64,000 bases of DNA from a virus, in the IMG/VR virus record IMGVR_UViG_3300043539_000897, positions 102,277 to 166,276 of that record; one strand, given 5' to 3'. Shown one piece after another: positions 39,570-63,274 of the stretch (within the stretch, counting starts at the first letter, position 1; every line of letters begins with the position of its first letter). Under the pieces are notes generated by a model, which did no database searches, was not told where the DNA came from, and was given only the letters and a program-made list of their open reading frames with translations. Made by a program: the position numbers and the translations under genes.

Positions 39570-40841
39570 ATGGCAAGTTGGAAAAAAGTAGTAGTCTCCG
39601 GTAGTAGTGCAGCACTTGCTGCTTTACAGGTAGACAACCTGACATCAGGGCAGGTCGTAATCGGCGGTGGATCCGCTGGAAACTTATCAACTACTGCAAT
39701 CAACGGTACTGGTAATATCTTAGCGACCACTGGTGCATCCGGTGTATCAATATCAGGTTCTTTCTCAGGATCGTTCTTCGGTAACGGTGCAGGGTTAACC
39801 GGAGTAACCGCAACTGCAATATTCCCAGTAACGCAGCTAACTCCAATCGCTCCAACAACGCAGGTTTTTGTAAACGATGGTTCAAATAAGTTCGCTACAG
39901 TCTCTCAGTTTACCTCTGCATCTTTTGCAGGGATTTCCGGTGATATTTTAGTTAGTTCTTTAGGTGTAGCAACGATCCAACCTAACTCTGTTGCAATCAG
40001 CACTGATGTTTCCGGATTAGGAACAGGTGTTGCTTCCTCTTTAGCTCTCAATGCATCTACTGCCGGTGGTATAGTTACATTTAACGGCGCATTAGGAACA
40101 CCATCCTCAGGTACTCTAACTAACGCAACTGGTCTACCAATTTCAACCGGTGTATCTGGACTAGGTACAGGTGTTGCAACTGCATTAGCGTTTAATGCTG
40201 GTTCTGCTGGATCAATATTAATTAATGGCGGAGTATTAGGTACTCCTTCTAGTGGTACTTTAACTAACGCTACTGGATTACCAATCTCAACTGGTGTGTC
40301 CGGCCTAGGAACAGGTATTGCTACCTTTTTAACAACTCCATCATCTGCTAACTTAGCAGCAGCAGTAACCGATGAAACAGGAACTGGTGCATTAGTATTT
40401 GCAGGATCACCAACATTCACAGGTACTGCAAACTTCGGTAGTTTAAGCACTACAGGAAACGCAGTTATCGGAGGTGACTTAACGGTTGCTGGTACTGCTT
40501 CATTTACCAATGTTGATAACTTAACAGTAAGGGATAAGTTTATTCTCATCAACTCAGGGTCAACAACCTTAGCAGATTCAGGATGGGTTACTCAATATAA
40601 TGCCGCCGGATCAGGTTCTGCCTTCTACTTAGAAGCTAGTTCAACAGGTACTTACGGTCGTTTTGCAATGGCATACGATGTCATCGGAACGGCTACCGCC
40701 TTAACTGCCGACGAGTACGTAGTATCTGCTAAAACAGCAGCCGGTGCTCCTGCAGCAAATCCAACATGGGGTGGAGCTACTAATGGTTTTGGCAACGTAT
40801 ACGTAAACTCGTCAAACGGGGATATTTATATGTACAGTTAA
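39570..40841 (+). CDS. Tail fibre protein with GLGTGVA repeats
   Basis: 423 aa. The N-terminus (MASWKKVVVSGSSAALAALQ) closely resembles that of the giant fibre at 41376, suggesting the same docking site. Residues 145-255 contain a run of about 45-55-residue repeats (ISTGVSGLGTGVA, then LGTPSSGTLTNATGLP) in three partial copies. A beta-rich C-terminal part contains VIGGDLTVAGTASFTNVDNL and YVNSSNGDIYMYS. Likely a shorter fibre or a connector in the tail-fibre network. Confidence 0.7.
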   Translation: MASWKKVVVSGSSAALAALQVDNLTSGQVVIGGGSAGNLSTTAINGTGNILATTGASGVSISGSFSGSFFGNGAGLTGVTATAIFPVTQLTPIAPTTQVFVNDGSNKFATVSQFTSASFAGISGDILVSSLGVATIQPNSVAISTDVSGLGTGVASSLALNASTAGGIVTFNGALGTPSSGTLTNATGLPISTGVSGLGTGVATALAFNAGSAGSILINGGVLGTPSSGTLTNATGLPISTGVSGLGTGIATFLTTPSSANLAAAVTDETGTGALVFAGSPTFTGTANFGSLSTTGNAVIGGDLTVAGTASFTNVDNLTVRDKFILINSGSTTLADSGWVTQYNAAGSGSAFYLEASSTGTYGRFAMAYDVIGTATALTADEYVVSAKTAAGAPAANPTWGGATNGFGNVYVNSSNGDIYMYS

Positions 40842-41294: not shown

Positions 41295-41302
41295 TATTTA
41301 TA
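41295..41302 (+). promoter_or_regulatory. Late promoter-like motif TATTTATA (first giant fibre)
   Basis: Exact copy continued as ACAAAC, the same extension as the copy at 50059. It lies 73 nt before the ATG, leaving room for a structured leader. Confidence 0.5.
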
Positions 41303-41375
41303 ACAAACCTAATGTTGGCCCGCAAGGGAAGTAGGCAGCAACGTCGCTGTTTCTAACCGCAAAAGGAGTATATAT
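41303..41375 (+). promoter_or_regulatory. Structured leader with strong Shine-Dalgarno site
   Basis: Two local hairpins can be drawn: CCC-GCAA-GGG near 41320-41329 (GNRA tetraloop), and GCAGC-AACGTC-GCTGT near 41336-41351. Then AAAAGGAG ends 7 nt before the ATG, the clearest Shine-Dalgarno site seen in the window. The GC-richer leader contrasts with the leaderless-looking neighbours. Function inferred. Confidence 0.4.
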
Positions 41376-44300
41376 ATGCCAAATTGGAGAAAACTGATTG
41401 TATCGGGGTCTGATGCCTCATTGAATTCACTTAATGTTACTCAAAATGTAACAGCACAATCATTTACAGGCTCTTTATTCGGTACAGCCTCGTTTGCCAT
41501 TTCTGCTTCTTATGCACTAACTGCTTCATTTGTATCAGGATCAGTAAACATTACCAACAATACAGATAATTTCCTTTTAACAGCAACTGGTACTCCGGCT
41601 ATTAACGGTGAAGCAAATGCTACCTTTAACGGTTCGACTTTAGCAATTACCGGTAATACTACATCTACTTTAGATTCAACATTTAATAGTGTTAGTGTTG
41701 GATTAGGAGGAGGAAGTGTTTCTAGTAACACTGCAATAGGTTTTTGTGTATTAAGAAATAACACAACAGGAACTGGAAATACAGGTATTGGAAACCAAGC
41801 TCTTTTTTCAAATACAACAGGAGCAAATAACACAGCTTTAGGTCAAAATGCTTTATTATTTAATACAACAGGAGTAAACAACACAGCTGTAGGTCTTAAT
41901 AGTTTATTATGTAATACAGTAGGAACAAACAACACATCTATAGGTCTTAATAGTTTAATATGTAACACAATTGGAGGAGGTAATACTTCTGTAGGTTTTG
42001 GGGCTATGTCTCAAAACACAATAGGTTACAGTAATACAGCTATTGGTTCTAGTGCATTGCAGAATAATACAACAGGTACAAATAACGTATCTATAGGTGT
42101 ATCTGCTCTTTGCTCTAATATAACTGGTAGAAGTAATGTAGCAGTTGGACAACAATCACTCCAACAAAATACAACAGGTATTTGTAACACAGCTTTAGGA
42201 GCATTATCACTTCGAAATAATACTACAGGTGCATTTAATACAGCATTAGGTCGGGCAGCACTTTATGCTAATACAGGCGGTAATAACAACACCGCACTTG
42301 GTTATAATGCACTTGTTCAAAATACAGCATCAAATAACGTAGCTGTTGGTAAAGAAACATTACCTAACAATACTACAGGAACTTTAAATACCGCTGTTGG
42401 TACTCAAGCACTTTTTTCTAATAGCGCCGGTAATAATAATACAGCGCTAGGATATCAATCATTACTTTGTAACACAGCATCAAACAATACAGCAGTCGGC
42501 TTCTGTGCATTAAGAAGTAATACCACAGGAACAAATAACGTAGCGGTAGGTGTAATTACACTACGCAACAACACAATAGGTACTAGAAATACAGCTGTAG
42601 GTAGAACAGCATTATACGCTAATACAACCGGTGGTTCAAACGTAGCATTAGGTTATTACGCAGCTTATAGTAGTACAGGGGCCTCTAGTAATGTTGCTGT
42701 TGGTGATAGCGCTTTACGTGCTAACACAGCATCAAACAACACAGCAGTCGGCTTCTGTGCATTAAGAAGTAATACAACAGGAGATGTAAACACAGCAGTA
42801 GGTAGAAGTGCGCTTGTTTCTAATACAGTTGGTAGAAGAAATAATGCATTTGGATTTTGTGCTTTAGCATTAAATGTAACTGGGTGTTATAGTACTGCAA
42901 TTGGAGACTATGCCTTAAGGAATAGCACAGCAGGCTCAAACGTAGCAATAGGTATTAATGCTTTAGGAGGTACTACAACAGGTGTAAATAATACGGCCGT
43001 TGGTTTTAATACTTTATTTTCTAATACAGTAGGTGCTTCTAATACTGCTCTAGGTCACCAATCTTTAACTTCTAATACAACAGGTAATAGTAATACAGCA
43101 GTTGGTGTTCAATCATTATTATCTAACACAGCTTCAAACAATACAGCAGTAGGTTTCTATAGTTTAAGAAGTAATACAACCGGTCTTAGAAATGTAGCGA
43201 TTGGTACTGAATCTTTAAGATTTAATACAATAGGTTCAAATAATGTATCAGTAGGGATGGATTCTGGTTTTTACAATACCACAGGTAATTGTAATACAGC
43301 AGTAGGAGACCAATCATTAACTAACAATACAGTCGGTAGTAATAATGTTGCTATTGGTAAATTAGCTTTATTTTGCAATACAGCATCAAATAATACAGCC
43401 GTAGGATTTTGTTCATTAAGAAGTAATACAGTAGGATACTATAATGCAGCTTTAGGATCATCAGCTTTACAAAACAACACTACAGGAAAAAGAAATACTG
43501 CTGTTGGCGCTTTATCATTACAGTGTAACACTGTAGGTTTTTGTAATACTGCATTAGGAACTCTTTCTTTAAGAAATAACACCACAGGAACATACAATAC
43601 AGCATTAGGAGCTAGTAGTTTAGCTTTAAATACTATAGGTAGTGGTAATACTGCAGTAGGTGCTAATGCTTTGTTAGCTAATACCACAGGAGGTTCAAAT
43701 ACAGCAGTTGGTTCAGGTGCACTTTCTAGCAACACAATAGGACAATATAATACTGCTTTAGGTGGAGGAGCATTATCAAGCAATACAACCGGTAATAATA
43801 ACATAGGAGTTGGTATATTATCTCAATTAAGAACAACAACAGGTACTTTTAACTTATCTATTGGTAACTGTGCTTTATATTGTATAACAACAGCCTCACA
43901 AAACATTGCTATAGGTAATAGTGCTTTACGTGTAAGTACTGCCTCTGAAAACATGGCAGTAGGTCATGGTGCTCTTAATGTTAATACAACAGGTACTAAT
44001 AACATTGCTGTAGGAAATAGTGCTTTAAGAAATAATACTGTAGGTTCCAATAATACCGCTTTAGGTAGATCTACTTTATATAATAATACTCTAGGTAGTC
44101 AAAATACAGCTGTAGGTAGGGTATCATTAAGAAATAATACTACTGGTAATTATAATACTGCTGTTGGTGATGGTAGTTTATATAGTAACACTATAGGTAA
44201 AAGTAATACAGCAGTTGGATTTTATACACTTCTTTCTAACACAGCCTCTAATAACACAGCAGTAGGTTTCTGTGCATTAAGAAATAATACAGCAGGATGC

Positions 44301-47300
44301 AGAAACGTAGCTCTAGGTTATAAAGCACTAAGATGTAACACAACCGGTAATCAAAACATAGCAATTGGTACTAATTCTTTAACAGCAAATACCGCCGGTA
44401 CAAACAATATTGCTATTGGTTATAGAGCAGCAGGCTCAGTTACAGGAAATACTGTTATTGCTATTGGAGAAGCAGCAATGTATGCCAGTCCAGGTATTGG
44501 AAATACTATAGGTATAGGTACTGACGCTTTAAGAAATAATACAGGTGCTAATAATGTTGGTATAGGTCAATTAGCTCTAGCTTATAACACTTCTGGAGTA
44601 AGTAATACCGCTGTAGGTACACAAGCCTTAAAGTTTAACACTACAGGTATTTTAAATACAGCCGTAGGTACATATTCTTTACAAAATAATACTGTAGGTG
44701 TATGTAATACAGCAATAGGTTTTCAATCTTTATGTGTAAATACAACAGGAACTGAAAATACAGCTGTTGGTTTAGGATCTCTTAGATTTAATACAGGAGG
44801 TGCTTTTAACACAGCAATTGGTAGAGGTTCTATGTTCTGCAATACTACCGGAGCAAATAATACCGCAGTAGGATTTGGTAGTTTACAGTATAATACTGTA
44901 GGAACAAATAATACAGCTCTAGGATTCTTTTCATTATTCTGCAACACAGTATCTAACAATACAGCAGTCGGATACTTATCATTAAGAAATAATACAACAG
45001 GAGTAAACAATACAGCAGTTGGTGTTAATGCCTTAAGAACTAATACAACAGGAGCATATAATACATCATTAGGTGCTAGTGCTTTATTTACCAATACAAC
45101 AGGTTTTAATAATACTGCTGTTGGTGCTGTAGCTTTACAAAATAATACTATTGGATTTAACAATACTGCTTTAGGTAATAGTGCATTAAGATGTAATACA
45201 ACAGGTGCTAATAACGTAGCTGTTGGTAGAGTAGCTTTAATACTTAATACTACTGGTTTTAGAAACAATGCTTTAGGTAATGGAGCATTATATTCTAATA
45301 CAACTGGATTTGATAATAGTGCTTTTGGATATCTTTCTGTATCAAGCAACACCACAGGAGCGTACAATGCTGGTTTTGGACACAGAACATTATATGGAAC
45401 AACAACAGGAGGAAAAAATACAGCTGTTGGTGCTTTTGCTTTAACTTGTAACACAGCCTCAAACAACACAGCAGTAGGTTTCTGTGCATTGAGAAGTAAT
45501 ACAACAGGATTATATAATGTTGCTTTAGGGTCTCTAGCGTTAAGAAGTAATACAACAGGAGCACAGAACACTGCTGTAGGTACTAGTGCTTTACAGTATA
45601 ATACAGTAGGAATTAAAAATACAGCAATAGGCGGAGGTGCTTTACAGTATAATACAACAGGGGTTAATAATACAGCTTTAGGACATTATAGTCTAAACTG
45701 CAATACAGCATCCAACAACACAACCATTGGTTTTTGTGCATTAAGAAGTAATACAACAGGAACACTTAATACAGCTGTTGGTGTTACATCATTGTCAAAC
45801 AACACTATTGGTTCATATAATACTTCATTAGGTGCTTTATCTCTTCAAAGTAATACTACAGGTGTTTTAAATACAGCAATAGGTATATCAGCCTTAAGAT
45901 ACACTACTGTAGGCTCTTGTAATACATCAGTAGGTAACGATTCTTTAAATAGTAATATAAGTGGTAATAATAATACAGCTTTAGGTTCTAGAGCACTTCA
46001 AGCAAATACAGCATCAAACAACACAGCAGTAGGTTTCTGTGCATTAAGAAATAATACTACAGGTGTTCAAAATACAGCTTTAGGTTTTCAAGCCCTTCGA
46101 GATAATACAACAGGGGGTGCTAATACAGCAGTAGGTTATAATGCCTTAGCTCTTAACACTTCCGGAGTAGCAAATACAGCTATAGGGTATAGTTCTATGA
46201 TTGCTAACTTAACAGGTTGTAGAAACGTAGCCGCAGGCCGTAGTTCCTTACGTTGTAATTCTACTGGTGTTGGTAACGTAGGTTTAGGTTACTATGCTTT
46301 ATGTTCAAACACTACAGGTGTACAAAACGTAACTGTTGGTAATCTCTCAATGAGATTAAACCAAGGCGGTAGTTATAATATTGCCATGGGTTGCGGTGCT
46401 TTATATTCTAATGTTGCCGGAACAAATAATACAGCTCTTGGATTTAGATCTTTATTCTCTAACACAGCATCAAACAATACAGCTGTTGGATATAGTGCTT
46501 TACGAAGTAATACAACAGGTAAATATAACGTTTCAGTAGGTTCAAATTCTTTAAAATGTAACACAACAGGTATTAATAATACTTCAGTTGGTACATTATC
46601 ATTATTTAACAATACCGGAGGTATAAATAACGTAGCTTTAGGTTATGAAACAGCATGTAAAATTACTACAGGTAACCGTAACACTGCTATAGGAACACAA
46701 GCTCTTATATGTAACATTACCGGTGATAATAACGTATCGTTAGGTTTTAGGTCTTTGCTTATTAATACAGCTTCATCTAACACAGCAGTAGGTACTTGCG
46801 CGTTATCTAGTAATACAACAGGTGTACATAATACTGCCGTAGGTTTTAGAGTGTTAGAAAGTAATACAGTCGGAACAGGTAACACCGGTGTTGGTAAATA
46901 TACCTTAATAGGTAATACAACCGGTATTAATAATACGGCTTTAGGATATAATACTTTAAGATGTAATACAACCGGAGTTAATAACGTTTCTATAGGTATA
47001 AATGCTTTAATAGCTAATACAAACGGTAGCAATAATGTTGGTATTGGTGTAAACTCTTTAAACTCAGCTACTGCCAACAACTACAACGTGGGTGTAGGTA
47101 CAAATACATTAAGAAACATTACTGGTAACTACAACACAGCCCTTGGTGGTGCTGCTTTATGTGCAAACACAGGTGGTGCTAGTAACGTGGCTGTAGGAAC
47201 TAGTGCAATGCAGGTTGGAAATGCTGGTTCAAACAATACAGCTGTTGGTTTCCAATCAATGTTGTATAATACAGCTAATAGTAATACTGCTGTAGGTTTT

Positions 47301-50057
47301 TATACATTAAGAAGTAATACAACAGGAACAAGTAACACAGCAGTAGGTTTTTGTTCACTAAGACAAAATACAACAGGAACAAACAACGTAGCTGTAGGTA
47401 CTTGTGCTTTAGTTAATACTACAATAGGAGGATGTAATACTGCCCTTGGTGCTTTTGCTTTACGTAATAATACAACAGGTGTTGATAACACAGCAGTAGG
47501 TTTAGGAGCCCTTCAACTTAACACTACAGGATACAATAACACAGCAGTAGGTAGACAAGCCTTGTACAGTAATGTCACAGGACGTTCTAATACCGCAATG
47601 GGTAGAAGTTCTTTACTGTTCAATACAGCCAACAGCAATACTGCTTTTGGATACTATTCTTTACGTAGTAATACAACAGGAACAAAAAACACAGCAGTTG
47701 GTGTATTTGCCCTAAGAGCAAACCAAACCGGTATTAATAATACCGCTATAGGTTACCAAGCCCTAACAAGCAACACAGCCTCATACAACACAGCAGTAGG
47801 CTTTCAGTCTTTACGGTGCAACACTACAGGAACTTATAATGTAGCTCTAGGTCATAATGCTTTAAGAGACAACACTACAGGTAAATCAAACATTGCTATT
47901 GGCTTAAGTGCTTTATTAACAAATACTGTAGGGTCAAGTAATGTAGGTATTGGATATTATGCTTTAAGAACTAACACAGCCTCAAACAACACAGCTGTAG
48001 GTTACAATTCATTAAGAAGTAATACAACCGGAACAACAAACACAGCCGTTGGTGTTAATGCTCTATGTTCTAACACTATTGGTACCAGAAATGTGGGAAT
48101 AGGACATTTCTCACTAAGACTGAATACAACAGGAAAACTCAATACAGCTGTTGGATATTATACATTAAGAAACAATAGTACAGGAGAAAATAACGTTGCT
48201 GTAGGTAACCAGTCACTAGCTTACAACCTTGTTGGTTCAAACAACACAGCATTAGGAACTAACGCATTACGTTGTAACACAGCATCAAACAACACAGCAG
48301 TAGGTTTCTGTGCATTAAGAAGTAATACAACAGGAACAAATAACGTAGCTGTAGGTATTAATTCATTATCAACAAATACAATTGGTAGTTCAAACACAGC
48401 CTTAGGAACTAATGCTTTGCAACTTAACACAATAGGTGATAGAAATACAGCAGTAGGTTCTAGTGCCTTATTTAATAATACAACAGCAGGTGGAAACACA
48501 GCAATTGGTAGAGGTGCTTTAGAAGCTACTACCACAGGATCTAACAATACAGCAGTAGGTTGGTACTCTCAACTTTGTAACAGTACAGGTCAAGCAAACA
48601 CAGCTTTAGGTGTTTATTCTTTAAGAAATAATACAACAGGTATTTCTAACGTTGCTATAGGTTTAAATGCTTTATGTGCTAACACAGCATCAAATAACAC
48701 AGCAGTAGGTTATGCCGCTTTGAGGGCTAATACAACAGGAACAAATAACGTAGCTGTAGGCTGTGGTGCCTTGATTTCTAATATTGTAGGTACCCAAAAC
48801 ACAGCTGTAGGTACTCAAGCTCTTATAGACAATACAGCCTCTGGTAATACAGCGGTTGGTTTCTGTGCCGCTAGGTGTAATGCTGGGGGTTACGGAAACA
48901 CAGCTATAGGTAGATGCACTTTAAGATTAAACATTTCAGGTACTGGAAATACTGCTTTAGGGGATCAAGCATTAGAAGCAAATACAGTTAGTGGAAATAC
49001 AGCTGTTGGTACATATGCTATGGAATCTACCACTACAGGCGCTAATAACACAGCCATGGGTTTTGCAGCACTTGTTGCTAATACAACTGGAGCAGAAAAC
49101 GCAGCTGTAGGACATAGTGCTTTAAGAGCAAATATTATAGGTTCAGGTAATGTAGGTATTGGATTTTATGCTTTACGAGGTAATACTGCTAATAACAATA
49201 CAGCAGTTGGTGGAAGTGCTTTAAGATGTAACACAACAGGTACCGCTAACTCAGCTGTTGGTGCTGGTGCTTTATTTTACAATGTTAACGGTGTAAGAAA
49301 CTCAGCTTTTGGTCAAAGTGCTTTATTAATCAACACCGGGGGATCAAATAACACAGCTATAGGTTATAATAACTCAAGAGCTAGTGTCGGTAACAATAAT
49401 ACATCTTTAGGAGCCTATGCTTTAAGGTACAATGCTGTCAGTTATAATACTGCTGTAGGAAGTAGTGCTTTAAGAAATGTTACTTATGGTAACAGAAATA
49501 CAGCCATCGGTCTATCATCTGGTATCTGTATTACAACAGGAGCTTGTAACGTAATCTTAGGTGGAGCATCAGCTAACGGATTCGGTACTCAAAACTGTAA
49601 CATCTTCATCTCCGACGGTGCAGGTAACATAAGAATGTTTGTTACCGGTTCAACAGGATTTGTCGGTGTTAACACTACCTCCCCCCAACAGCAACTCCAT
49701 ATCGGAGGAGCATTATCAATCTCCGGATCAGTAATAGACTACGAAGTAGCACCGGCATTACTAAGTCCAGGCCCAGGTACTAATATTATTTCATTTGTAC
49801 CCGGTACAACCTATGCAGCCTTCGTTGATTACGTTATAAAAGACGCATCAACAGGTGCAAACCAACGTGTTGGAACTATAATGGTATCGGTTTCTCTTGC
49901 AGCTACAAGTGCTGTCATCAATGAAGTAGTTACGACAGATATCGGTAACACTTCCGCAATAAGCTTTGCGATAACCTACGGAGCACCGACCTGGCTATCA
50001 GCTGCAAACTCAGGGATAACTCCTTTCGATATTAATTACATGGTTAGGTACTTCTAA
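41376..50057 (+). CDS. Giant tail fibre 1, 17-residue NTAVG repeats (2893 aa)
   Basis: 2893 aa in one open frame. Residues 1-60: docking module MPNWRKLIVSGSDASLNSLN and SASYA-type linker. Residues 118-2714: about 153 units of 17 residues with consensus NTTGxNNTAVGxxALxx, some 16-residue units of form NTASNNTAVGFCALRS. The pattern resembles YadA-type left-handed beta-roll repeats. Residues 2715-2770 hold GACNVILGG, NIFISDGAGNIRMFVTGSTG. The end (QRVGTIMVSVSL, TTDIGNTSAISFAI, FDINYMVRYF) resembles a fibre-tip domain of marine phages; no S74 chaperone is present. Probably a very long trimeric adhesion fibre. Structured leader upstream. Confidence 0.8.
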   Translation: MPNWRKLIVSGSDASLNSLNVTQNVTAQSFTGSLFGTASFAISASYALTASFVSGSVNITNNTDNFLLTATGTPAINGEANATFNGSTLAITGNTTSTLDSTFNSVSVGLGGGSVSSNTAIGFCVLRNNTTGTGNTGIGNQALFSNTTGANNTALGQNALLFNTTGVNNTAVGLNSLLCNTVGTNNTSIGLNSLICNTIGGGNTSVGFGAMSQNTIGYSNTAIGSSALQNNTTGTNNVSIGVSALCSNITGRSNVAVGQQSLQQNTTGICNTALGALSLRNNTTGAFNTALGRAALYANTGGNNNTALGYNALVQNTASNNVAVGKETLPNNTTGTLNTAVGTQALFSNSAGNNNTALGYQSLLCNTASNNTAVGFCALRSNTTGTNNVAVGVITLRNNTIGTRNTAVGRTALYANTTGGSNVALGYYAAYSSTGASSNVAVGDSALRANTASNNTAVGFCALRSNTTGDVNTAVGRSALVSNTVGRRNNAFGFCALALNVTGCYSTAIGDYALRNSTAGSNVAIGINALGGTTTGVNNTAVGFNTLFSNTVGASNTALGHQSLTSNTTGNSNTAVGVQSLLSNTASNNTAVGFYSLRSNTTGLRNVAIGTESLRFNTIGSNNVSVGMDSGFYNTTGNCNTAVGDQSLTNNTVGSNNVAIGKLALFCNTASNNTAVGFCSLRSNTVGYYNAALGSSALQNNTTGKRNTAVGALSLQCNTVGFCNTALGTLSLRNNTTGTYNTALGASSLALNTIGSGNTAVGANALLANTTGGSNTAVGSGALSSNTIGQYNTALGGGALSSNTTGNNNIGVGILSQLRTTTGTFNLSIGNCALYCITTASQNIAIGNSALRVSTASENMAVGHGALNVNTTGTNNIAVGNSALRNNTVGSNNTALGRSTLYNNTLGSQNTAVGRVSLRNNTTGNYNTAVGDGSLYSNTIGKSNTAVGFYTLLSNTASNNTAVGFCALRNNTAGCRNVALGYKALRCNTTGNQNIAIGTNSLTANTAGTNNIAIGYRAAGSVTGNTVIAIGEAAMYASPGIGNTIGIGTDALRNNTGANNVGIGQLALAYNTSGVSNTAVGTQALKFNTTGILNTAVGTYSLQNNTVGVCNTAIGFQSLCVNTTGTENTAVGLGSLRFNTGGAFNTAIGRGSMFCNTTGANNTAVGFGSLQYNTVGTNNTALGFFSLFCNTVSNNTAVGYLSLRNNTTGVNNTAVGVNALRTNTTGAYNTSLGASALFTNTTGFNNTAVGAVALQNNTIGFNNTALGNSALRCNTTGANNVAVGRVALILNTTGFRNNALGNGALYSNTTGFDNSAFGYLSVSSNTTGAYNAGFGHRTLYGTTTGGKNTAVGAFALTCNTASNNTAVGFCALRSNTTGLYNVALGSLALRSNTTGAQNTAVGTSALQYNTVGIKNTAIGGGALQYNTTGVNNTALGHYSLNCNTASNNTTIGFCALRSNTTGTLNTAVGVTSLSNNTIGSYNTSLGALSLQSNTTGVLNTAIGISALRYTTVGSCNTSVGNDSLNSNISGNNNTALGSRALQANTASNNTAVGFCALRNNTTGVQNTALGFQALRDNTTGGANTAVGYNALALNTSGVANTAIGYSSMIANLTGCRNVAAGRSSLRCNSTGVGNVGLGYYALCSNTTGVQNVTVGNLSMRLNQGGSYNIAMGCGALYSNVAGTNNTALGFRSLFSNTASNNTAVGYSALRSNTTGKYNVSVGSNSLKCNTTGINNTSVGTLSLFNNTGGINNVALGYETACKITTGNRNTAIGTQALICNITGDNNVSLGFRSLLINTASSNTAVGTCALSSNTTGVHNTAVGFRVLESNTVGTGNTGVGKYTLIGNTTGINNTALGYNTLRCNTTGVNNVSIGINALIANTNGSNNVGIGVNSLNSATANNYNVGVGTNTLRNITGNYNTALGGAALCANTGGASNVAVGTSAMQVGNAGSNNTAVGFQSMLYNTANSNTAVGFYTLRSNTTGTSNTAVGFCSLRQNTTGTNNVAVGTCALVNTTIGGCNTALGAFALRNNTTGVDNTAVGLGALQLNTTGYNNTAVGRQALYSNVTGRSNTAMGRSSLLFNTANSNTAFGYYSLRSNTTGTKNTAVGVFALRANQTGINNTAIGYQALTSNTASYNTAVGFQSLRCNTTGTYNVALGHNALRDNTTGKSNIAIGLSALLTNTVGSSNVGIGYYALRTNTASNNTAVGYNSLRSNTTGTTNTAVGVNALCSNTIGTRNVGIGHFSLRLNTTGKLNTAVGYYTLRNNSTGENNVAVGNQSLAYNLVGSNNTALGTNALRCNTASNNTAVGFCALRSNTTGTNNVAVGINSLSTNTIGSSNTALGTNALQLNTIGDRNTAVGSSALFNNTTAGGNTAIGRGALEATTTGSNNTAVGWYSQLCNSTGQANTALGVYSLRNNTTGISNVAIGLNALCANTASNNTAVGYAALRANTTGTNNVAVGCGALISNIVGTQNTAVGTQALIDNTASGNTAVGFCAARCNAGGYGNTAIGRCTLRLNISGTGNTALGDQALEANTVSGNTAVGTYAMESTTTGANNTAMGFAALVANTTGAENAAVGHSALRANIIGSGNVGIGFYALRGNTANNNTAVGGSALRCNTTGTANSAVGAGALFYNVNGVRNSAFGQSALLINTGGSNNTAIGYNNSRASVGNNNTSLGAYALRYNAVSYNTAVGSSALRNVTYGNRNTAIGLSSGICITTGACNVILGGASANGFGTQNCNIFISDGAGNIRMFVTGSTGFVGVNTTSPQQQLHIGGALSISGSVIDYEVAPALLSPGPGTNIISFVPGTTYAAFVDYVIKDASTGANQRVGTIMVSVSLAATSAVINEVVTTDIGNTSAISFAITYGAPTWLSAANSGITPFDINYMVRYF
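41727..49518 (+). repeat. 51-bp coding tandem repeat array 1 (about 153 units)
   Basis: In-frame degenerate 51-bp units of the type AAT ACA ACA GGA ... AAT ACA GCT GTA GGT. Copy number is the array length (7792 bp) divided by 51. Near-identical blocks recur, for example AACACAGCATCAAACAA followed by CAGCAGTAGGTTTCTGTGC at many sites. Because 51 is a multiple of 3, unit gain or loss keeps the frame. Confidence 0.85.
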
Positions 50058-50058
50058 C

Positions 50059-50066
50059 TATTTATA
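50059..50066 (+). promoter_or_regulatory. Late promoter-like motif TATTTATA (second giant fibre)
   Basis: Exact copy overlapping the end of the first giant gene region, extended as ACAAAC like the one at 41295; 36 nt before the ATG at 50103. The leader contains CCCG-GACAGTGAA-CGGG (50079-50095). Confidence 0.45.
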
Positions 50067-50102
50067 ACAAACACCTGCCCCGGACAGTGAACGGGTATAC
50101 TT

Positions 50103-53100
50103 ATGGCTAATGAATTTGTAATTAAAAATGGTCTTATTGTCTCCGGATCTACCCGCGTATCGGGAGGAGTGACAGCACAATCTTTTACAGGGTCTTTTTC
50201 AGGATCAATCAGTAATGCAGTCTCTGCATCGTATGCAGCTACGGCCTCCTATGCCCTCAATGCAGGTGATTCTGTCTGGACCGGTTCGGCAGGTAATATC
50301 TACTATTCAGGAGGAAATGTTGGTATTAATACATCATCACCTTCAGCAAAATTTGAAGTTGCAAGCTGTGATATTTTAGTAAATAGTGTCAGTGTTGGTT
50401 TAGGTGGAGGAAGTATTGCTAGTAACACTAGAGTAGGGTGTAATGCTTTATTAAATAATACAACAGGAATAGACAACACAGCAGTTGGCTGTAGTGCTTT
50501 AGCAGCAAATACTATTGGTGTTTCAAATACAGCTATAGGAAGAAGTGCTTTAGAAAGTAACACAACAGGAACTAGTAATACAGCAGTAGGTAGAACAGCT
50601 TTACTAAATAATACAGTAGGTACTAGAAATACAGCCGTAGGCAGAACAGCTTTAAGATTTAATATAACAGGTGGTTCAAACGTAGCTGTAGGTTATTATG
50701 CAGCTTATAATAGTACAGGTGCTTCTAGTAATGTTGCAATTGGTGATAGTGCTTTACGTTCAAATACAGCATCAAATAATACAGCAGTCGGTTCATGTGC
50801 ATTATGTAGTAATACAACAGGTACCCAAAACGTAGCAGTTGGTAATAGGGTGTTTAACTATAATAGTGTAGGCAGTTACAATACTGCAGTTGGTTTCCAT
50901 GCAGCATATACCCTAACCTCAGGAACGTATAACGTAGCAATGGGTAGAACTGCATTAAGAAATGTCTTAGCAGGTAGCAATAACGTTGCTTTAGGAGGAA
51001 GTGCTTTAAGAAATGTAGGTAATGCTAACAATAACGTAGGTGTAGGCCATTTAGCTTTATATGTCAATGCAGTTTCTAATAATGTTGCAGTTGGATTCTC
51101 AGCTCTAAGATGTAATACTACAGGTGGAGAAAACACTGCTTTAGGAACATATGCTTTAAGAAATAATACAACAGGAGGAAATAACACAGCTATTGGTAGA
51201 AGTGCTTTAGCATGTAATACAATTGGTACTCTTAATACAGCTGTAGGTATTAACGCTTTATGTGCTAATACAACTGGTCAACAAAATACAGCAGTAGGTG
51301 CTACAGCTTTAGCCGCTAATACAACAGGAGTTAATAATACAGCTTTAGGTGATATTGCTTTAAGAAGCAATACTACAGGTACATTAAATACAGCTTTAGG
51401 TAGAGCAGCTTTGTATGCTAACATAGTAGGTGCTCAAAACGTTGCTGTAGGTCTTTACGCTTTACTTTGTAATACAGCTTCAAACAATACCGCAGTTGGT
51501 ACTTGTGCCCTACAATTAAATACAGCATCAAACAACACAGCAGTTGGTTTCTGTGCATTAAGAAATAATACTACTGGTACAAGAACTACAGCAGTAGGTT
51601 TTTGTGCATTAGCAACTAATACAGTAGGTGATAAAAATACAGCAGTAGGATTTTGTTCTTTACGAGCAAATACATCTGGTTTTAGAAACACGGCTGTAGG
51701 AGATTTAGCATTAAAAGACAATACAACCGGAGCAAACAACGATGCTTTTGGGTATGCTGCTTTAATAAGTAATACCACAGGAACATTTAATACTGCCGTC
51801 GGTACAAATGCTTTAGGCAATAACTTAGTAGGAAGCAATAACGTTGCTGTAGGATACCTATCTCTCTACAAAACCACCGCTTCAAATAATACCTCAGTTG
51901 GATTTCAAGCTTTACGAGAAAACACAGCATCAAACAACACAGCAGTAGGTTTCTGTGCATTACGAAGTAATACAACAGGTATTCAGAATGTCGCTGTAGG
52001 AACATGTTCTTTAGTAAATAACACAGTAGGTACATTTAATACATCTGTAGGTGTATTTTCATTATGTTCAAATACAGTTGGAACACGAAATTCTGGATTT
52101 GGTGTTGCCGCTCTTCGTAATAATACTACAGGTGTAGATAATATTGCTATAGGATATCAGACTTTATATGGAAATGTTGTAGGAAGTAATAATGTAGCTG
52201 TAGGTAGAGATGCTTTACTCTGCAACACAGCATCAAACAACACAGCAGTAGGTTTTTGTGCATTAAGAAGTAATACAGCGGGTAGTTATAATACCGCTTT
52301 AGGAAGAACAGCATTACAAAATAATACAACAGGTTTATTAAATACAGCTTTAGGAGCTAATACTTTACAATCTAATACTACTGGTGTTGGTAATACCGCT
52401 GTTGGAACATCAGCTCTAAGTACAAATACTGTAGGTAGTTTCAATACAGCTGTTGGTAGAAGTTCACTTGCGGTTAATACCGCTTCAAACAACACAGCAG
52501 TAGGATATTTTTCATTAAGATATAATACAACAGGTGGAGAAAACACTGCTTTAGGAACATATGCATTAAGAAGTAATACAACAGGAACATTTAACGTAGC
52601 AGTTGGTGTGTCTGCTCTTAACGCAAACACAGTAGGTCAATATAATACAGGTATAGGATTTCAAGCACTTGTAAACAATACCGCTTCACGAAATACCGCA
52701 CTCGGAGCTTGTGCTCTACACCAAAATACAACAGGAACAAGAAACACCGCTTTAGGATATAAGGCCTCAATATTAAATACTACAGGGGTTAATAATACAT
52801 CTATTGGATATTGTTCTTTAGCGTTAAATACTGTAGGCACTAATAACACAGCAGTTGGTATTTGTGCATTAAGAAGTAATACAACATCTTCAAATAATAC
52901 AGCTGTCGGTAATTGTGCATTATTGAGCAATACAACAGGAGCCTTAAACGTTGCTGTTGGTTCACAAGCATTACAAAATAGTACAGTAGGTGATTGTAAC
53001 ATAGCAGTAGGACACGGTGCTTTACAGTACAACTCTTCAGGTAATAAAAACGTAGCTATTGGTCACCAAGCATTAGTATATAATGGTGCTGGATTAAACA

Positions 53101-56100
53101 ACGTAGGTATTGGATATAGAACTTTATTTAACAATACAGCATCAAACAACACAGCAGTTGGTTTCTGTGCATTAAGAAATAATACGACAGGAACATATAA
53201 CGTAGCAGTTGGTACTTTATCACTATTAGCCAATACTGTGGGTACACGAAACGTAGGTATTGGTGTAAATACAATAAGATGTAACACTTCAGGTGCCAAT
53301 AATGTTGCTTTTGGACATAACGCAATGTACTCTAATATTAGCGGTGTTAATAACGTAGCTCTTGGTTATAGAGCATTAGTATTTGCAAATGCTGATCGTA
53401 ACGTTGCAATTGGAACAGGTGTTTTAACCTATGGTGGTAGTAATAACGTTGGTGTCGGTTTTTGTGCTTTATTCTGCAATTCAGCATCAAACAACACAGC
53501 AGTAGGTTATTGTGCATTAAGAACTAACACAACAGGAACTAAAAATGTAGCTATTGGTAGTTGTGCTTTAAGGGCTAATATAGTAGGTAGTTACAACACA
53601 GCAATTGGTTTTAATGCTCTAAGATGTAATACAAATGCAACAAGTAATATAGCTATAGGATATGCTGCTGCTGCTTCTAATACAATTGGAACGTCTTTAG
53701 TTGCTATAGGTGTTAATGCTCTTGTCTATAATACAACTGGAGCACGAAATGTAGCTGTAGGTCAATCAGCACTGTATTGCAACATAATTGGAGAAAATAA
53801 TGTAGCAGTAGGTCATTTTACCCTTCGCGACAATAAAGCCTCAAACAATACAGCAGTAGGTACTAGTGCTTTAAGATATAATACAACAGGAACTCGAAAT
53901 GTAGGTGTAGGACATATAGCATTAACATCAAACACAACAGGTATAGATAATACCGCATTAGGATATAGAGCACTAAAATCTAATACAATTGGTCTTAGAA
54001 ATACAGCAATTGGCAGTTATGCTCTCGATGTAAATACAACAGGAAATAGTAACACTTCTGTTGGTTGGGCTTCTTTATTAAGTAATACTGTAGGTACTTC
54101 TAATACTGCTGTAGGTATAGATGCTTTAAGATATAATACAGTATCAGGTAATACAGCTGTAGGTTTTAATGCTTTATGTAATAATACAACAGGAACTAAT
54201 AATACAGCACTAGGATTTTGTGCCTTAAGAGCTAATACAACAGGAACTGCTAATACTTCAGTAGGTAATCAATCATTAAGAGATAACACAACAGGTATAC
54301 AGAATACTTCTATAGGTTTTGCTACACTAGCTAAAAATACAGTAGGTTCACGAAATAGTGCCTTTGGTGATAATACTCTATTTAATAACACCACAGGTGG
54401 ATACAATTCAGCTTTTGGTAGAGCATCTATGTATTCAAATGTTTCCGGTGCTAACAATACTGCATTAGGTTTTTATAGTTTATTTTCTAACACAGCATCA
54501 AACAATACAGCAGTAGGTTTCTGCGCATTAAGAAGTAATACAACAGGAACACAAAACACAGCTTTAGGTGTTTTAGCTCTACAAGCAAACACTACCGGAG
54601 GATACAACACAGCAGTGGGTAGAAGTGCTTTACAATCCAATACCGTAGGTGCTCTTAATATTAGTGTAGGTGCTTTTTCACTTTTTAGAAATACTATAGG
54701 TATTCGAAATATTGGTATGGGTAATAGCGCACTTGAATTTAATACTTCAGGTAATTACAATGTTGCGATAGGAGTTTCAGCTTTATATACTAATAATGCT
54801 GGTTCTAATAACGTAGCTATTGGTGAACAAACACTTCGTCAAAACACAGCATCAAACAATACAGCAATCGGTTTCTGTACATTAAGAAATAATACGGCGG
54901 GTAGTTATAATACTGCTTTAGGTAGAAGTGCATTAAGTGCTAATACAATTGGTACGGATAATATAGCTGTAGGCCCTTTTTCTTTAGGGTTAAACACTAC
55001 AGGTATTCAAAACGTTGCTGTTGGTCCAGCGGCTTTATTCTGTAATACTGTAGGTATAAATAACGTTGCTATAGGACATGTAGCTCTTTATAAAAACACA
55101 GCCTCAAACAATACAGCCGTAGGCTTCAATGCATTAAGATGTAATACAACAGGAACTGAAAATACTTCACTAGGACTTTGTTCAATGAGATTAAATACTA
55201 CCGGGAGATATAATACCTCTGTAGGTTCTAAATCATCTGCCAACAATACTACAGGATGTGCGAATGTATCCTTAGGACAAGGTGCACTATATTCAAATAT
55301 TGTCGGAAACAATAACACAGCTATAGGCCGTTCATCATTAGGATATAACACAGCCTCAAACAACACAGCAGTAGGCTTTAGTGCTCTAAGAAATAATACA
55401 ACAGGAGGAGCTAACACAGCTGTTGGATTTTATGCTCTTTGTGCCAATACTACAGGAGATAACAACACGGCAGTTGGTAGAGAAGCTTTACGTTTAGGTA
55501 CAACAGGTAGATTCAATACAGCTCTAGGTAGGTACGCAGGATGTTCTATCAACTCCAACTACAATACTGCCGTTGGTTTTGCTGCTTTACGTTACACTAC
55601 CACAGGAAGTTCAAACACCGCTTTAGGTCTTGAGTCTTTAAGAAATAATACACTAGGTGGTAGTAACGTAGGTGTTGGTGTCCAAGCTTTAAAAAACAAT
55701 ACTACGGGTAATAATAACGTATCAGTTGGTAGAGATTCAATGTACTGTAATACTGTAGGTGCTTCTAATACTGCTGTAGGTCATTATTCTTTACGCTCAA
55801 ACACAGCTTCAAACAATACAGCAGTAGGCTTCTGTGCCTTAAGAAATAATACAACAGGAGCAAGTAATACAGCGGTAGGTTTCTGTGCTTTATCAACTAA
55901 TATAACAGGTGTTAGAAATACAGCTGTTGGATATAATGCTTTAACAAGTAATTTAAGCAGTGATAATGCTGCTTTTGGTAGATTTGCTTTACTTAGTAAT
56001 ACTACCGGTACAAATAACATAGGAATAAATACAAATGCTTTAATATGCAATATAAATGGTTCAAATAACGTAGCCATTGGTAGAGATGCTTTATTTAGTA

Positions 56101-58115
56101 ATTCTGGAGGTAACAACAATGTTGGTATAGGTACAAATGCTTTATTTGGTAATACAGCATCAAATAATACAGCAGTTGGTAATAGTGCCTTACAAAACAA
56201 TACAACAGGGTGTTATAATACAGCTTTAGGACAGTGTGCCTTATCAAGTAATACTACTGGAGGATATAATGTTGCTATAGGCAGAATAGCATTAAGAGAT
56301 AATACAACTGGGGCTAGTAACACAGCAGTTGGTAATTTTACTTTAGGATTTAATATAACAGGAACAGGAAATACTGCTGTTGGTTCAGTAGCTCTCCTTG
56401 GAGGACAAGGAAACAATAATACAGCAGTAGGAAATCTTGCTTTATGTACAAACTCAACTTCCTGTAATAACACAGCTTTAGGTGCTGAAGCTCTTCGCTG
56501 TAACACAGCCTCAAACAACACAGCAGTTGGTTTCTGTGCATTAAGAAGTAATACAACAGGAACCAACAATACATCGGTTGGTATTTGTTCATTACTAGCA
56601 AACACATCAGGTGAACAAAACACATCTGTTGGTAACTTCGCATTACTTTCAAACACAACAGGTGTAAATAATTCAGCTTTTGGCTATAGAGCTTTAGCTA
56701 GTAATACAACAGCTAATGGAAATACAGCTTTTGGAGTAAGAGCATTATGTCTAAATACAACAGGAGGAAACAATACAGCTGTAGGAGTTGGAGCACTTAG
56801 ATTAAACATATCAGGAGAAAATAACATAGCATTAGGTACATCAGCTCTTTATTCTAACACAGCCTCAAACAATACAGCAGTAGGTTTCTTAGCAATGAGA
56901 AATAATACCTCAGGTACAAAAAATGTTGGATTAGGTAGAACGGCACTTTACGGTAACATAACAGGAAATTATAACGTAGCTGTAGGATATGATTCACAAA
57001 GATGTAGTGGTGGAGGTTCAAATAACACTTCATTAGGTTTCTATTCTTTATTCGCCAACACAGCCTCAAACAATACAGCAGTAGGCTTCAATGCATTAAG
57101 ATGTAATACAACAGGAACAGGTAATTCAAGTTTAGGATATGCTTCATTAGTCGCTAATACAACAGGTAATAATAACACGGCATTAGGTTTTCTTGCATTA
57201 CGTTTTAATACAGCAAGTAGCAACACAGCCGTAGGTTTTTATGCTTTAAGAAATAATACAACAGGTACAAATAACGTAGCTGTAGGTAATAATGCTTTAG
57301 TAAACAATACCTTTGCTGTTAGAAACGTAGCTATTGGTACTAGTGCTTTATGTGCTAACACATCTTCCTCAAACAATACAGCCGTTGGATATATTGCTTT
57401 ACAGGCCAATAACGGTGGTACAAATAATACAGCTTTAGGTGTTAATGCTTTAAGATCTAATACAACAGGATGTGATAATACGGCTTTAGGATCTTTAGCA
57501 TTAGATTATAATGTTACAGGAATTAATAATACCGCAGTAGGCAGGTGTGCTTTAAGAAATAACACAGCCTCTAATAATACAGCTATCGGCCTTAATGCAG
57601 GTATATGTATTACTTCAGGAGCTTGTAACGTAATCCTAGGTTCAGCCACAGCCACAGGATTTGCTGCAGAGAATAAAAACATCTTTATATCAGACGGAGC
57701 AGGTAACATAAGAATGTTTGTTACCGGTTCAACAGGATTTGTAGGTGTAGGACCCGGATTTACAGCCCCTATATATCCTCTACATGTATCTGGTTCATCA
57801 GGAGGTATTTCAATTTATGCTACTAATGATATAGCTGCTTTCTCAGATGAATCTGTTAAAACAGAATTACAAGTTATAGAAAATGCTTTAGAAAAAGTTA
57901 AAGAAATTAACGGATACACTTATGTTCGTTCTGATTCTGAAGATACTACTAGACGAGCAGGTGTTATAGCCCAAGAAATACAAAAAGTATTACCTGAAGT
58001 AATTACTAAAAACCCAGACGGTACCTTAAACGTTGCTTATCCTAACTTAGTAGCTCTATTGATTGAGGCAATTAAAGAACTAGATAAAGAACTACAAGAA
58101 CTAAAAAGTAAATAA
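50103..58115 (+). CDS. Giant tail fibre 2, 17-residue repeats with S74 chaperone (2670 aa)
   Basis: 2670 aa. N-terminus EFVIKNGLIVSGSTRVSGGV and VSASYAATASYALNAG. About 140 units of the same 17-residue repeat at residues 108-2499. Then GACNVILGS and the NIFISDGAGNIRMFVTGSTG module shared with fibre 1. The C-terminal 95 residues are a Peptidase_S74 intramolecular chaperone: AAFSDESVKTELQVIENALE (Ser near 2580 as nucleophile, Lys following), then YTYVRS, RRAGVIAQEIQKVLPEVI and NLVALLIEAIKELD. S74 domains trimerise the fibre and cut themselves off. The next gene is coupled by TAATG. Confidence 0.85.
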   Translation: MANEFVIKNGLIVSGSTRVSGGVTAQSFTGSFSGSISNAVSASYAATASYALNAGDSVWTGSAGNIYYSGGNVGINTSSPSAKFEVASCDILVNSVSVGLGGGSIASNTRVGCNALLNNTTGIDNTAVGCSALAANTIGVSNTAIGRSALESNTTGTSNTAVGRTALLNNTVGTRNTAVGRTALRFNITGGSNVAVGYYAAYNSTGASSNVAIGDSALRSNTASNNTAVGSCALCSNTTGTQNVAVGNRVFNYNSVGSYNTAVGFHAAYTLTSGTYNVAMGRTALRNVLAGSNNVALGGSALRNVGNANNNVGVGHLALYVNAVSNNVAVGFSALRCNTTGGENTALGTYALRNNTTGGNNTAIGRSALACNTIGTLNTAVGINALCANTTGQQNTAVGATALAANTTGVNNTALGDIALRSNTTGTLNTALGRAALYANIVGAQNVAVGLYALLCNTASNNTAVGTCALQLNTASNNTAVGFCALRNNTTGTRTTAVGFCALATNTVGDKNTAVGFCSLRANTSGFRNTAVGDLALKDNTTGANNDAFGYAALISNTTGTFNTAVGTNALGNNLVGSNNVAVGYLSLYKTTASNNTSVGFQALRENTASNNTAVGFCALRSNTTGIQNVAVGTCSLVNNTVGTFNTSVGVFSLCSNTVGTRNSGFGVAALRNNTTGVDNIAIGYQTLYGNVVGSNNVAVGRDALLCNTASNNTAVGFCALRSNTAGSYNTALGRTALQNNTTGLLNTALGANTLQSNTTGVGNTAVGTSALSTNTVGSFNTAVGRSSLAVNTASNNTAVGYFSLRYNTTGGENTALGTYALRSNTTGTFNVAVGVSALNANTVGQYNTGIGFQALVNNTASRNTALGACALHQNTTGTRNTALGYKASILNTTGVNNTSIGYCSLALNTVGTNNTAVGICALRSNTTSSNNTAVGNCALLSNTTGALNVAVGSQALQNSTVGDCNIAVGHGALQYNSSGNKNVAIGHQALVYNGAGLNNVGIGYRTLFNNTASNNTAVGFCALRNNTTGTYNVAVGTLSLLANTVGTRNVGIGVNTIRCNTSGANNVAFGHNAMYSNISGVNNVALGYRALVFANADRNVAIGTGVLTYGGSNNVGVGFCALFCNSASNNTAVGYCALRTNTTGTKNVAIGSCALRANIVGSYNTAIGFNALRCNTNATSNIAIGYAAAASNTIGTSLVAIGVNALVYNTTGARNVAVGQSALYCNIIGENNVAVGHFTLRDNKASNNTAVGTSALRYNTTGTRNVGVGHIALTSNTTGIDNTALGYRALKSNTIGLRNTAIGSYALDVNTTGNSNTSVGWASLLSNTVGTSNTAVGIDALRYNTVSGNTAVGFNALCNNTTGTNNTALGFCALRANTTGTANTSVGNQSLRDNTTGIQNTSIGFATLAKNTVGSRNSAFGDNTLFNNTTGGYNSAFGRASMYSNVSGANNTALGFYSLFSNTASNNTAVGFCALRSNTTGTQNTALGVLALQANTTGGYNTAVGRSALQSNTVGALNISVGAFSLFRNTIGIRNIGMGNSALEFNTSGNYNVAIGVSALYTNNAGSNNVAIGEQTLRQNTASNNTAIGFCTLRNNTAGSYNTALGRSALSANTIGTDNIAVGPFSLGLNTTGIQNVAVGPAALFCNTVGINNVAIGHVALYKNTASNNTAVGFNALRCNTTGTENTSLGLCSMRLNTTGRYNTSVGSKSSANNTTGCANVSLGQGALYSNIVGNNNTAIGRSSLGYNTASNNTAVGFSALRNNTTGGANTAVGFYALCANTTGDNNTAVGREALRLGTTGRFNTALGRYAGCSINSNYNTAVGFAALRYTTTGSSNTALGLESLRNNTLGGSNVGVGVQALKNNTTGNNNVSVGRDSMYCNTVGASNTAVGHYSLRSNTASNNTAVGFCALRNNTTGASNTAVGFCALSTNITGVRNTAVGYNALTSNLSSDNAAFGRFALLSNTTGTNNIGINTNALICNINGSNNVAIGRDALFSNSGGNNNVGIGTNALFGNTASNNTAVGNSALQNNTTGCYNTALGQCALSSNTTGGYNVAIGRIALRDNTTGASNTAVGNFTLGFNITGTGNTAVGSVALLGGQGNNNTAVGNLALCTNSTSCNNTALGAEALRCNTASNNTAVGFCALRSNTTGTNNTSVGICSLLANTSGEQNTSVGNFALLSNTTGVNNSAFGYRALASNTTANGNTAFGVRALCLNTTGGNNTAVGVGALRLNISGENNIALGTSALYSNTASNNTAVGFLAMRNNTSGTKNVGLGRTALYGNITGNYNVAVGYDSQRCSGGGSNNTSLGFYSLFANTASNNTAVGFNALRCNTTGTGNSSLGYASLVANTTGNNNTALGFLALRFNTASSNTAVGFYALRNNTTGTNNVAVGNNALVNNTFAVRNVAIGTSALCANTSSSNNTAVGYIALQANNGGTNNTALGVNALRSNTTGCDNTALGSLALDYNVTGINNTAVGRCALRNNTASNNTAIGLNAGICITSGACNVILGSATATGFAAENKNIFISDGAGNIRMFVTGSTGFVGVGPGFTAPIYPLHVSGSSGGISIYATNDIAAFSDESVKTELQVIENALEKVKEINGYTYVRSDSEDTTRRAGVIAQEIQKVLPEVITKNPDGTLNVAYPNLVALLIEAIKELDKELQELKSK
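50424..57600 (+). repeat. 51-bp coding tandem repeat array 2 (about 140 units)
   Basis: Same unit as array 1; 7177 bp divided by 51. Blocks such as the NTASNNTAVGFCALR coding segment are shared with array 1 at near-identity, for example around 51930, 52230, 54490 and 56510. Confidence 0.85.
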
Positions 58116-58795
58116 TGACCGTACCTACCACAAACGTAAAATTTAGTGATATTTGGAGTGAGGCAAATGGGGCTTATAGTTCTGGTTTGCTTACTTTAAA
58201 CAGTATGAGCTTCTTTTCATATTTTGCTGGTCCAAATGGTTCAAACTCCGTACCAGACAATAACTGGGGTCAAGGCGAAGTATCAGGAGCAAACAGAATT
58301 TATGGAACATCAGCTAAAACTACAAATATTGCTGTAGGTGATTTTGACGGATTAACTTATTTTTACGATAATTCTACGTTTCAGGTAACTTTAAATGTAA
58401 CAAATAATAAAACAAACCCACCACCGTTTCCACCTCCACCAGTAGATAATGCTGTTAACGTGAATGTTGAGTTATGGGATTCTTCATTTTCATATCAATA
58501 TTTAAATGGTGGTGGTATGGCTATGGCCCCTGGTACTTATGGACCTAGTGCTGTAAGTCAAACAAATGATCCTATTATATTTAGGGGTTATTGGAAAGTA
58601 ACAGTTTCTGGAGCTTTTCCTTCATTTGCCGGAGGTACTGCAAATTTATCTATAAATGGAATTGTTTTCTTCGCAGGACAAGGAGTAGCAGCTGGTTCAG
58701 GTGGAACTACATTTACTTCAACCACATTTGGAACAGCAGATGTAGCATCTTATTTAGGACTTACAGGTTTATATTTTGATGTAACAGTCAATTAA
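58115..58795 (+). CDS. Gly/Ser-rich beta protein after giant fibres; adhesin or tip candidate
   Basis: 226 aa. N-terminus VKFSDIWSEANGAYSSGLLT and LNSMSFFSYFAGPNGSN; a Pro run (TNPPPFPPPPVDN) near residue 105; then Gly-rich strands (YQYLNGGGMAMAPGTYGPSA; FFAGQGVAAGSGGTTFTS). Start overlaps the giant fibre stop (TAATG), so stoichiometry is linked. The MxVP..NVKFSDIxxE start recurs in marine-phage tail proteins as far as I recall. Receptor-binding tip (functionally like T4 gp38) is inferred, not shown. Confidence 0.55.
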   Translation: MTVPTTNVKFSDIWSEANGAYSSGLLTLNSMSFFSYFAGPNGSNSVPDNNWGQGEVSGANRIYGTSAKTTNIAVGDFDGLTYFYDNSTFQVTLNVTNNKTNPPPFPPPPVDNAVNVNVELWDSSFSYQYLNGGGMAMAPGTYGPSAVSQTNDPIIFRGYWKVTVSGAFPSFAGGTANLSINGIVFFAGQGVAAGSGGTTFTSTTFGTADVASYLGLTGLYFDVTVN

Positions 58796-60996: not shown

Positions 60997-61025
60997 TATA
61001 AATCGGTTATTTTAAGTTAAAGTTT

Positions 61026-63273: not shown

Positions 63274-63274
63274 C

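Follow-up and report, generated by a model that had tools for sequence, protein, structure and literature searches.

Two adjacent open reading frames, covering 16.7 kb of a viral genome, raise the question of what is built from proteins made almost entirely of one short repeat, and how large the resulting structure would be. They lie in the window, by which we mean the whole 64,000-nucleotide stretch analysed, the final 64 kb of a 166,276-bp virus record. An earlier note on this DNA had described two giant genes of 2893 and 2670 aminoacids, with nearly 300 copies of one 17-residue repeat making up about 90% of the proteins. Both frames were recovered exactly, in position and length, and the repeat count and its share of the proteins hold as well. 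The two genes are laid out as follows.

41376..50057, + strand: giant fibre gene 1, open reading frame of 2893 aminoacids
41376..41726, + strand: gene 1 N-terminal region, residues 1-117, probable virion-attachment end
41727..49595, + strand: gene 1 array, about 155 units, 126 of 17 and 28 of 16 residues
49596..50054, + strand: gene 1 adaptor (NIFISDGAGNIRMFVTGSTGFVGV) and C-terminal domain, without database match
50103..58115, + strand: giant fibre gene 2, open reading frame of 2670 aminoacids
50103..50423, + strand: gene 2 N-terminal region, residues 1-107, retained in relatives whose shaft differs
50424..57674, + strand: gene 2 array, about 143 units, 113 of 17, 28 of 16 and one of 15 residues
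57675..58112, + strand: gene 2 adaptor and tip

Both proteins are tripartite, with an N-terminal region of about 110 residues, an array that takes up about 91%, and a C-terminal part of about 150 residues. The arrays span residues 118-2740 in gene 1 and 108-2524 in gene 2 (90.7% and 90.6% of the proteins), with 155 and 143 units by a joint profile, or 156 and 144 by unit parsing. The unit follows the pattern N-T-A-V-G-x-x-A-L-x-x-N-T-T-G-x-x, and the steps between units are 17 or 16 residues throughout, with a single exception of 15. Autocorrelation at lag 17 is 0.385 for gene 1 and 0.370 for gene 2, against a maximum of 0.13 in 200 shuffles over lags 5-119. Mean unit identity is 49% and every 17-mer but one is unique, which rules out an expanded exact repeat; within the 16.7 kb, exact DNA repeats reach 50-59 bp at most.

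As for the phage itself, profile matches in the record to T4-like PHROGs (terminase, portal, protease, major head protein and baseplate wedge) give it the background of a T4-like myovirus, and the fibre cassette adjoins the T4-like terminase, portal, protease, capsid and PhoH genes. Among isolates, Flavobacterium phage immuto has the nearest capsid protein (56%), so the host is likely, rather than demonstrated, to be a member of Bacteroidota. No giant fibre gene was found near the capsid genes of immuto, a point against the tail fibre reading given below.

The giant proteins repeatedly match PHROGs 23837 and 6002 (virion structural) and 4636 (tail spike), with E about 0 in 19-32 stretches each. 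Together with the gene 2 tip and a fold match to a P-SSM2 fibre, both described below, this supports the earlier assignment as phage fibre genes. The gene 2 protein matches 1379 phage records, some probably through its C-terminal S74 end only. Shorter arrays of the repeat had already been seen in marine phages, in SPO1 and in PHROGs, and YadA-type domains have been described in hypervariable host-recognition regions of pelagiphages (PMC3909814, PMC7029224). We found the same NTAVG..AL..NTTG unit in the proximal tail fibre of Prochlorococcus phage P-SSM2, in pelagiphage HTVC111P, Methylophilales phage Venkman, Bacillus phage SPO1 gp2.52 and Kyanoviridae AG-345-L05. Several of these fibres end in an S74-type C-terminus, and the annotated ones are named tail fibre or tail spike. 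The isolate-phage arrays examined hold 11 to 33 units and that of the single-cell Kyanoviridae AG-345-L05 holds 83, compared with 155 and 143 in the window. Giant arrays of 65 to 210 units, with interspersed 16-residue units and some in tandem pairs, are present in six IMG/VR contigs (G006, L131, L132, L133, L134 and L136), whose N-terminal parts and tips differ from those of the window. The window arrays belong to a family, of which they are long but not unique examples, and rank among the longest in this comparison. The fibre of L132 is longer than either window gene: it has at least 4621 aminoacids, 210 units, an S74-like end and an N-terminal part rich in GTSG.

Judging from the genes alone, it is quite probable that the two genes encode T4-like tail fibre shafts, in which stacked β-roll turns form an array that swaps blocks, between fixed ends and with an exchangeable tip. 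An AlphaFold2 model of 10 units, computed as a monomer with a 101-row alignment drawn only from the units of this phage and of its relative, showed the units regularly stacked, each contributing one short strand (pLDDT 84, pTM 0.78). Each unit is thus predicted to form one β-roll turn, with G5 of NTAVG as the invariant glycine after the inner strand, present in 100% of units. A Foldseek search of predicted viral proteins returned 57 matches at E ≤ 1e-3, among them several giant-virus proteins and the P-SSM2 protein annotated as T4-like proximal tail fibre (TM 0.77). In the PDB, nothing reached E 1e-3 with the 10-unit model. The best fold matches by probability were the trimeric-adhesin heads BoaA (3s6l, 0.98) and CbpF (0.87), the former with TM 0.58/0.63 but E 0.46. 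An ice-binding role rested only on a ryegrass ice-binding protein among the weak fold matches, and was set aside as nothing further supported it.

YadA-like heads had been proposed as the nearest known design. They do stand among the best fold matches, but kinship at the sequence level is absent: the unit profile matched no PDB sequence, and Pfam YadA_head (PF05658) matched nowhere in the record at E ≤ 10, nor by hmmscan. The link is therefore by fold only. With YadA, BoaA and BpaC the arrays have in common a short repeat whose inner strand is followed by an invariant glycine, a turn (here predicted) for each repeat, and long tandem arrays. The period of the left-handed parallel β-roll in these heads is 14 residues per turn, mostly 15 in UspA1 (PMC9543794), in contrast to 17 and 16 in the window arrays. 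They are also bacterial trimeric autotransporter adhesins, and the β-roll of BpaC has 42 layers (PMC9543794); the window rods are phage-borne and would have about 150 turns. No autotransporter membrane anchor was found in either window protein, whose C-termini carry S74 or an unmatched domain instead. The unit probably works like a YadA β-roll, a resemblance in fold and not in sequence.

Solved β-rolls rise 4.8 Å per turn (PMC9543794). At one turn per unit and 0.48 nm per turn, about 150 turns stacked head to tail would give a stiff rod of about 70-75 nm, with predicted lengths of about 74 nm for gene 1 and 69 nm for gene 2. The rod would probably be a homotrimer. Each would be about half of the T4 long tail fibre (145 nm; PMC6957217), so the expectation of an extremely long fibre is unsupported. 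The size of the proteins reflects the cost of a β-roll, 17 residues for each 0.48 nm, and not an unusual fibre length.

The repeat was first described as a single 17-residue unit. The register is strict, but there are two unit lengths, 17 and 16, and the shorter one had been overlooked. Each window array has 28 units of 16 residues, in which T-A-S-N replaces T-T-G-x-x, as in this example.

54456..54554, + strand: 16-residue unit and the conserved unit that follows it, residues 1452-1484 of gene 2

The short units recur every 5.0 to 5.2 units, and the variance of their spacing is 5.8 and 4.2, compared with 21.5 and 18.1 after shuffling (p ≤ 0.0002 for both genes). Even spacing was found at p < 0.05 in 12 of 13 arrays, which share some blocks and are not fully independent; the exception is L131, which also stands outside the mean unit length of 16.8-16.9 seen in the other tested arrays. 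Venkman has four 16-residue units and HTVC111P one. The unit after a short unit is more conserved than the others, with 60% and 73% identity in the window genes against 49%, and it more often keeps the same codons (0.55 and 0.64 against 0.51-0.52). Near-identical copies of 44 bp were found in different phages. A DNA pattern coding for TASNNTAVGFCALR had no match in bacterial genome contigs. The codon conservation could be explained by common descent of this unit type. In the simplest reading, a turn one residue shorter about every fifth turn, with the conserved turn next to it, probably corrects the register or twist of the stack. We found no earlier mention of a regular 16-residue punctuation in the literature searched; its even spacing of about 5 units, and the conservation of the next unit in both DNA and protein, are new here.

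Cysteine makes up 2.1-2.4% of the arrays (window 41727-57674) and up to 3.2% in relatives, which is unusual for an extracellular fibre. Within the unit they mainly occupy positions 7 and 11, often in an FCALR that follows a short unit.

In terms of how the arrays change, one comparison is with G006, a relative whose capsid protein is 95% identical and whose fibre gene ends, outside the arrays, have about 92% DNA identity with those of the window. Its arrays have 204 and 176 units and barely align with the window arrays, apart from a few blocks (e.g. 714 bp of gene 2 at 93%). Among 19 arrays compared, some that otherwise barely align have blocks of 3 to 15 units in common, with a mean identity of 87-98%, and several of these blocks link different phages. 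The arrays are thus mosaics, and both the fixed ends around diverged arrays in a relative and the blocks common to other phages are new here. Similarity between neighbouring units scarcely exceeds that between units far apart (gene 1, 0.51 against 0.50; gene 2, 0.54 against 0.51), which speaks against local duplication as the current mode of growth; the present pattern is therefore one of block exchange, not of recent slippage. By gaining and swapping blocks of turns with other phages, an array would vary in length between ends that do not change. Blocks shared with the window have dN/dS of 0.17, 0.19, 0.19, 0.34, 0.04 and 0.58, mostly 0.17-0.34, hence the protein is under purifying selection. 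Edges of blocks fall at the short-unit punctuation in 29 of 72 edge sides against 15.7 expected, about twofold, a count in which the two sides of one edge are not independent and extension into conserved sequence is a further bias. As most edges fall elsewhere, recombination solely at the punctuation is unsupported and the enrichment is only suggestive.

The ends of the two genes behave differently from their arrays. Their N-termini are related to each other (39% over 117 aminoacids), and may attach the proteins to the virion or to another part of the fibre. After the last unit, a shared adaptor would carry an exchangeable C-terminal module. As had been reported, an S74 domain is present in one of the two paralogues and a different C-terminus in the other: PF13884 is found in gene 2 and is absent from gene 1. 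The tip of gene 2 and the gene that follows it are given here.

57843..58001, + strand: Peptidase_S74 intramolecular chaperone domain of gene 2 (PF13884, residues 2581-2633, E 3.4e-12)
58115..58795, + strand: gene of 226 aminoacids overlapping the gene 2 stop, probable tip-associated adhesin

The S74 match scores 46.9 bits against a cut-off of 22, and the gene 2 C-terminus also matches a long tail fibre distal subunit (PDB 6f45_A, E 2.4e-8). An S-D-x-x-x-K stretch, SDESVK, is present, which we take to be the S74 dyad motif and a candidate for self-cleavage. The domain would help the trimer to fold and may then cut itself off. As for the 226-residue product, no sequence match to a solved adhesin was found; it is a candidate adhesin on the gene 2 tip.

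The C-terminus of gene 1 lacks S74 and any database match. A tblastn search with this tip in isolate phages found no match, and AlphaFold2 with a seven-row alignment gave no usable model (pLDDT 41). It is the most conserved piece, with dN/dS of 0.055 against the relative. In another relative, L086, related N-termini (47% for gene 1, 77% for gene 2) and the gene 1 C-terminus (67%) are joined to shafts without these units. This joining of the same ends to a different shaft is new here, and the array therefore acts like a spacer that can be exchanged. The gene 2 tip differs among three lineages while the gene 1 C-terminus stays fixed. The window and L088 have the S74 tip followed by the 226-aminoacid gene (86% in one relative), and G006 has a different tip domain followed by a Laminin_G_3 lectin gene in place of the 226-aminoacid gene. 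The gene 2 tip and its neighbouring gene seem to switch together, as expected for receptor binding.

Whether the two shafts belong to two fibres or to one is where the readings part. The earlier note had proposed two separate fibres of similar length with different receptors, a reading that we hold to be somewhat short of an even chance. The C-termini do differ, the related N-termini could dock at equivalent sites, and tandem pairs recur in three further contigs (L133, L136 and L137). The part concerning two fibres and two receptors is unproven, however, as the gene 1 C-terminus varies little among relatives, unlike what is expected of a receptor-binding tip. Near-fixed while the gene 2 tip is swapped, it may be a joint, and fits one as well as it fits a receptor-binding tip.

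With such a joint, gene 1 and gene 2 could be the proximal and distal halves of one long tail fibre, like gp34 and gp37 of T4, a reading that suits the data no less than two fibres do and that we regard as possible and put forward tentatively. T4-family long tail fibres (gp34, gp37, gp38) share the fibre role with the window genes, and the order of fibre half, fibre half and tip gene resembles T4 34...37-38; their shaft is not the single-type repeat array of the window. The strong constraint on the gene 1 C-terminus suits this arrangement, as do the three different gene 2 tips and the retention in L086 of the gene 1 C-terminus and gene 2 N-terminus though both shafts differ. The predicted rods sum to about 143 nm, close to the 145 nm of T4 (PMC6957217), but this match may be chance, since the relative's arrays would sum to about 182 nm. 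No gene like gp35 or gp36 was recognised between the giant genes, and the first genes of the tandem pairs in L133 and L136 bear S74 or large variable domains, as receptor-binding tips would.

A more specific proposal, which we consider rather doubtful, combines several of these points: a short turn every five turns or so would correct the stack, its conserved DNA would double as a junction for homologous recombination, and phages would swap cassettes of about five turns and so tune fibre length, with the two genes supplying the halves of a jointed fibre about as long in total as that of T4.

Since PHROGs 23837 and 6002 are classed with head and packaging, the proteins could be fibres of the head or neck instead of the tail. 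This reading, which extends to whiskers, has in its favour that the giant genes come just after the capsid and PhoH genes. It is nevertheless quite unlikely, given that PHROG 4636 is a tail spike, that S74 and the 6f45 match point to a tail fibre, and that swapping of a tip with an adjacent lectin gene is typical of host recognition.

In terms of authenticity, the region recurs in two other IMG samples, at 100% over 11,777 bp (L082) and at 99.99% over 17,111 bp (L083); the sole difference, G43305T in L083, changes Gly644 of gene 1 to a stop and is a polymorphism or an error. An assembly artefact, named in advance as what could overturn the arrays, or decaying repeats, would agree with the metagenomic contig and with that stop at residue 644, but both are highly implausible, as separate assemblies hold identical arrays, exact repeats of 60 bp or more are absent, two frames stay open for more than 2600 codons each, and dN/dS is well below 1 in most shared blocks. 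The locus is a real, intact and long example of a known phage fibre design.

Fibre length and tip govern how a phage finds its host. Read as tail fibre shafts, the locus is a modular design, with fixed ends, a tip that can be swapped together with a neighbouring lectin-like gene, and a shaft of variable length: phages whose capsid proteins are 95% identical differ by a quarter to a third in its number of turns. Should the short turns prove to be genuine punctuation, the arrays would make up a natural series of β-roll rods whose length follows a readable rule.

Lastly, several features were observed around the two genes.

37664..39547, + strand: SASYA-rich fibre-like gene of the same cassette, upstream, without family match
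39570..40841, + strand: upstream fibre-like gene without family match, N-terminus resembling that of gene 1 (MASWKKVVVSGSSA / MPNWRKLIVSGSDA)
41295..41303, + strand: TATTTATAA box, late-promoter-like, 81 bp 5' of gene 1
50059..50067, + strand: TATTTATAA box, late-promoter-like, 44 bp 5' of gene 2

The TATTTATAA boxes look like late promoters; the coding strand has 11 of them (window 680-50067) and the opposite strand 1, mostly 12-81 bp 5' of gene starts, those of both giant genes included. The stretch preceding gene 1 (GGGAAGTAGGCAGCAACG...CTGTTTCTAACCGCAAAAGGAGTATATAT, window 41308-41375) is kept in L002 and L085, and is possibly a structured or translated leader. Beside the baseplate genes, window 7636-12099 encodes a protein of 1487 aminoacids without PHROG or Pfam match. 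Directly 3' of the fibre cassette, window 58838-63616 contains genes for glycosyltransferases, an FkbM methyltransferase, a sulfotransferase, and APS-kinase-like and HAD proteins. Their order is kept in G006 (L139), and the glycosyltransferase-rich host-recognition clusters of pelagimyophages resemble this region.
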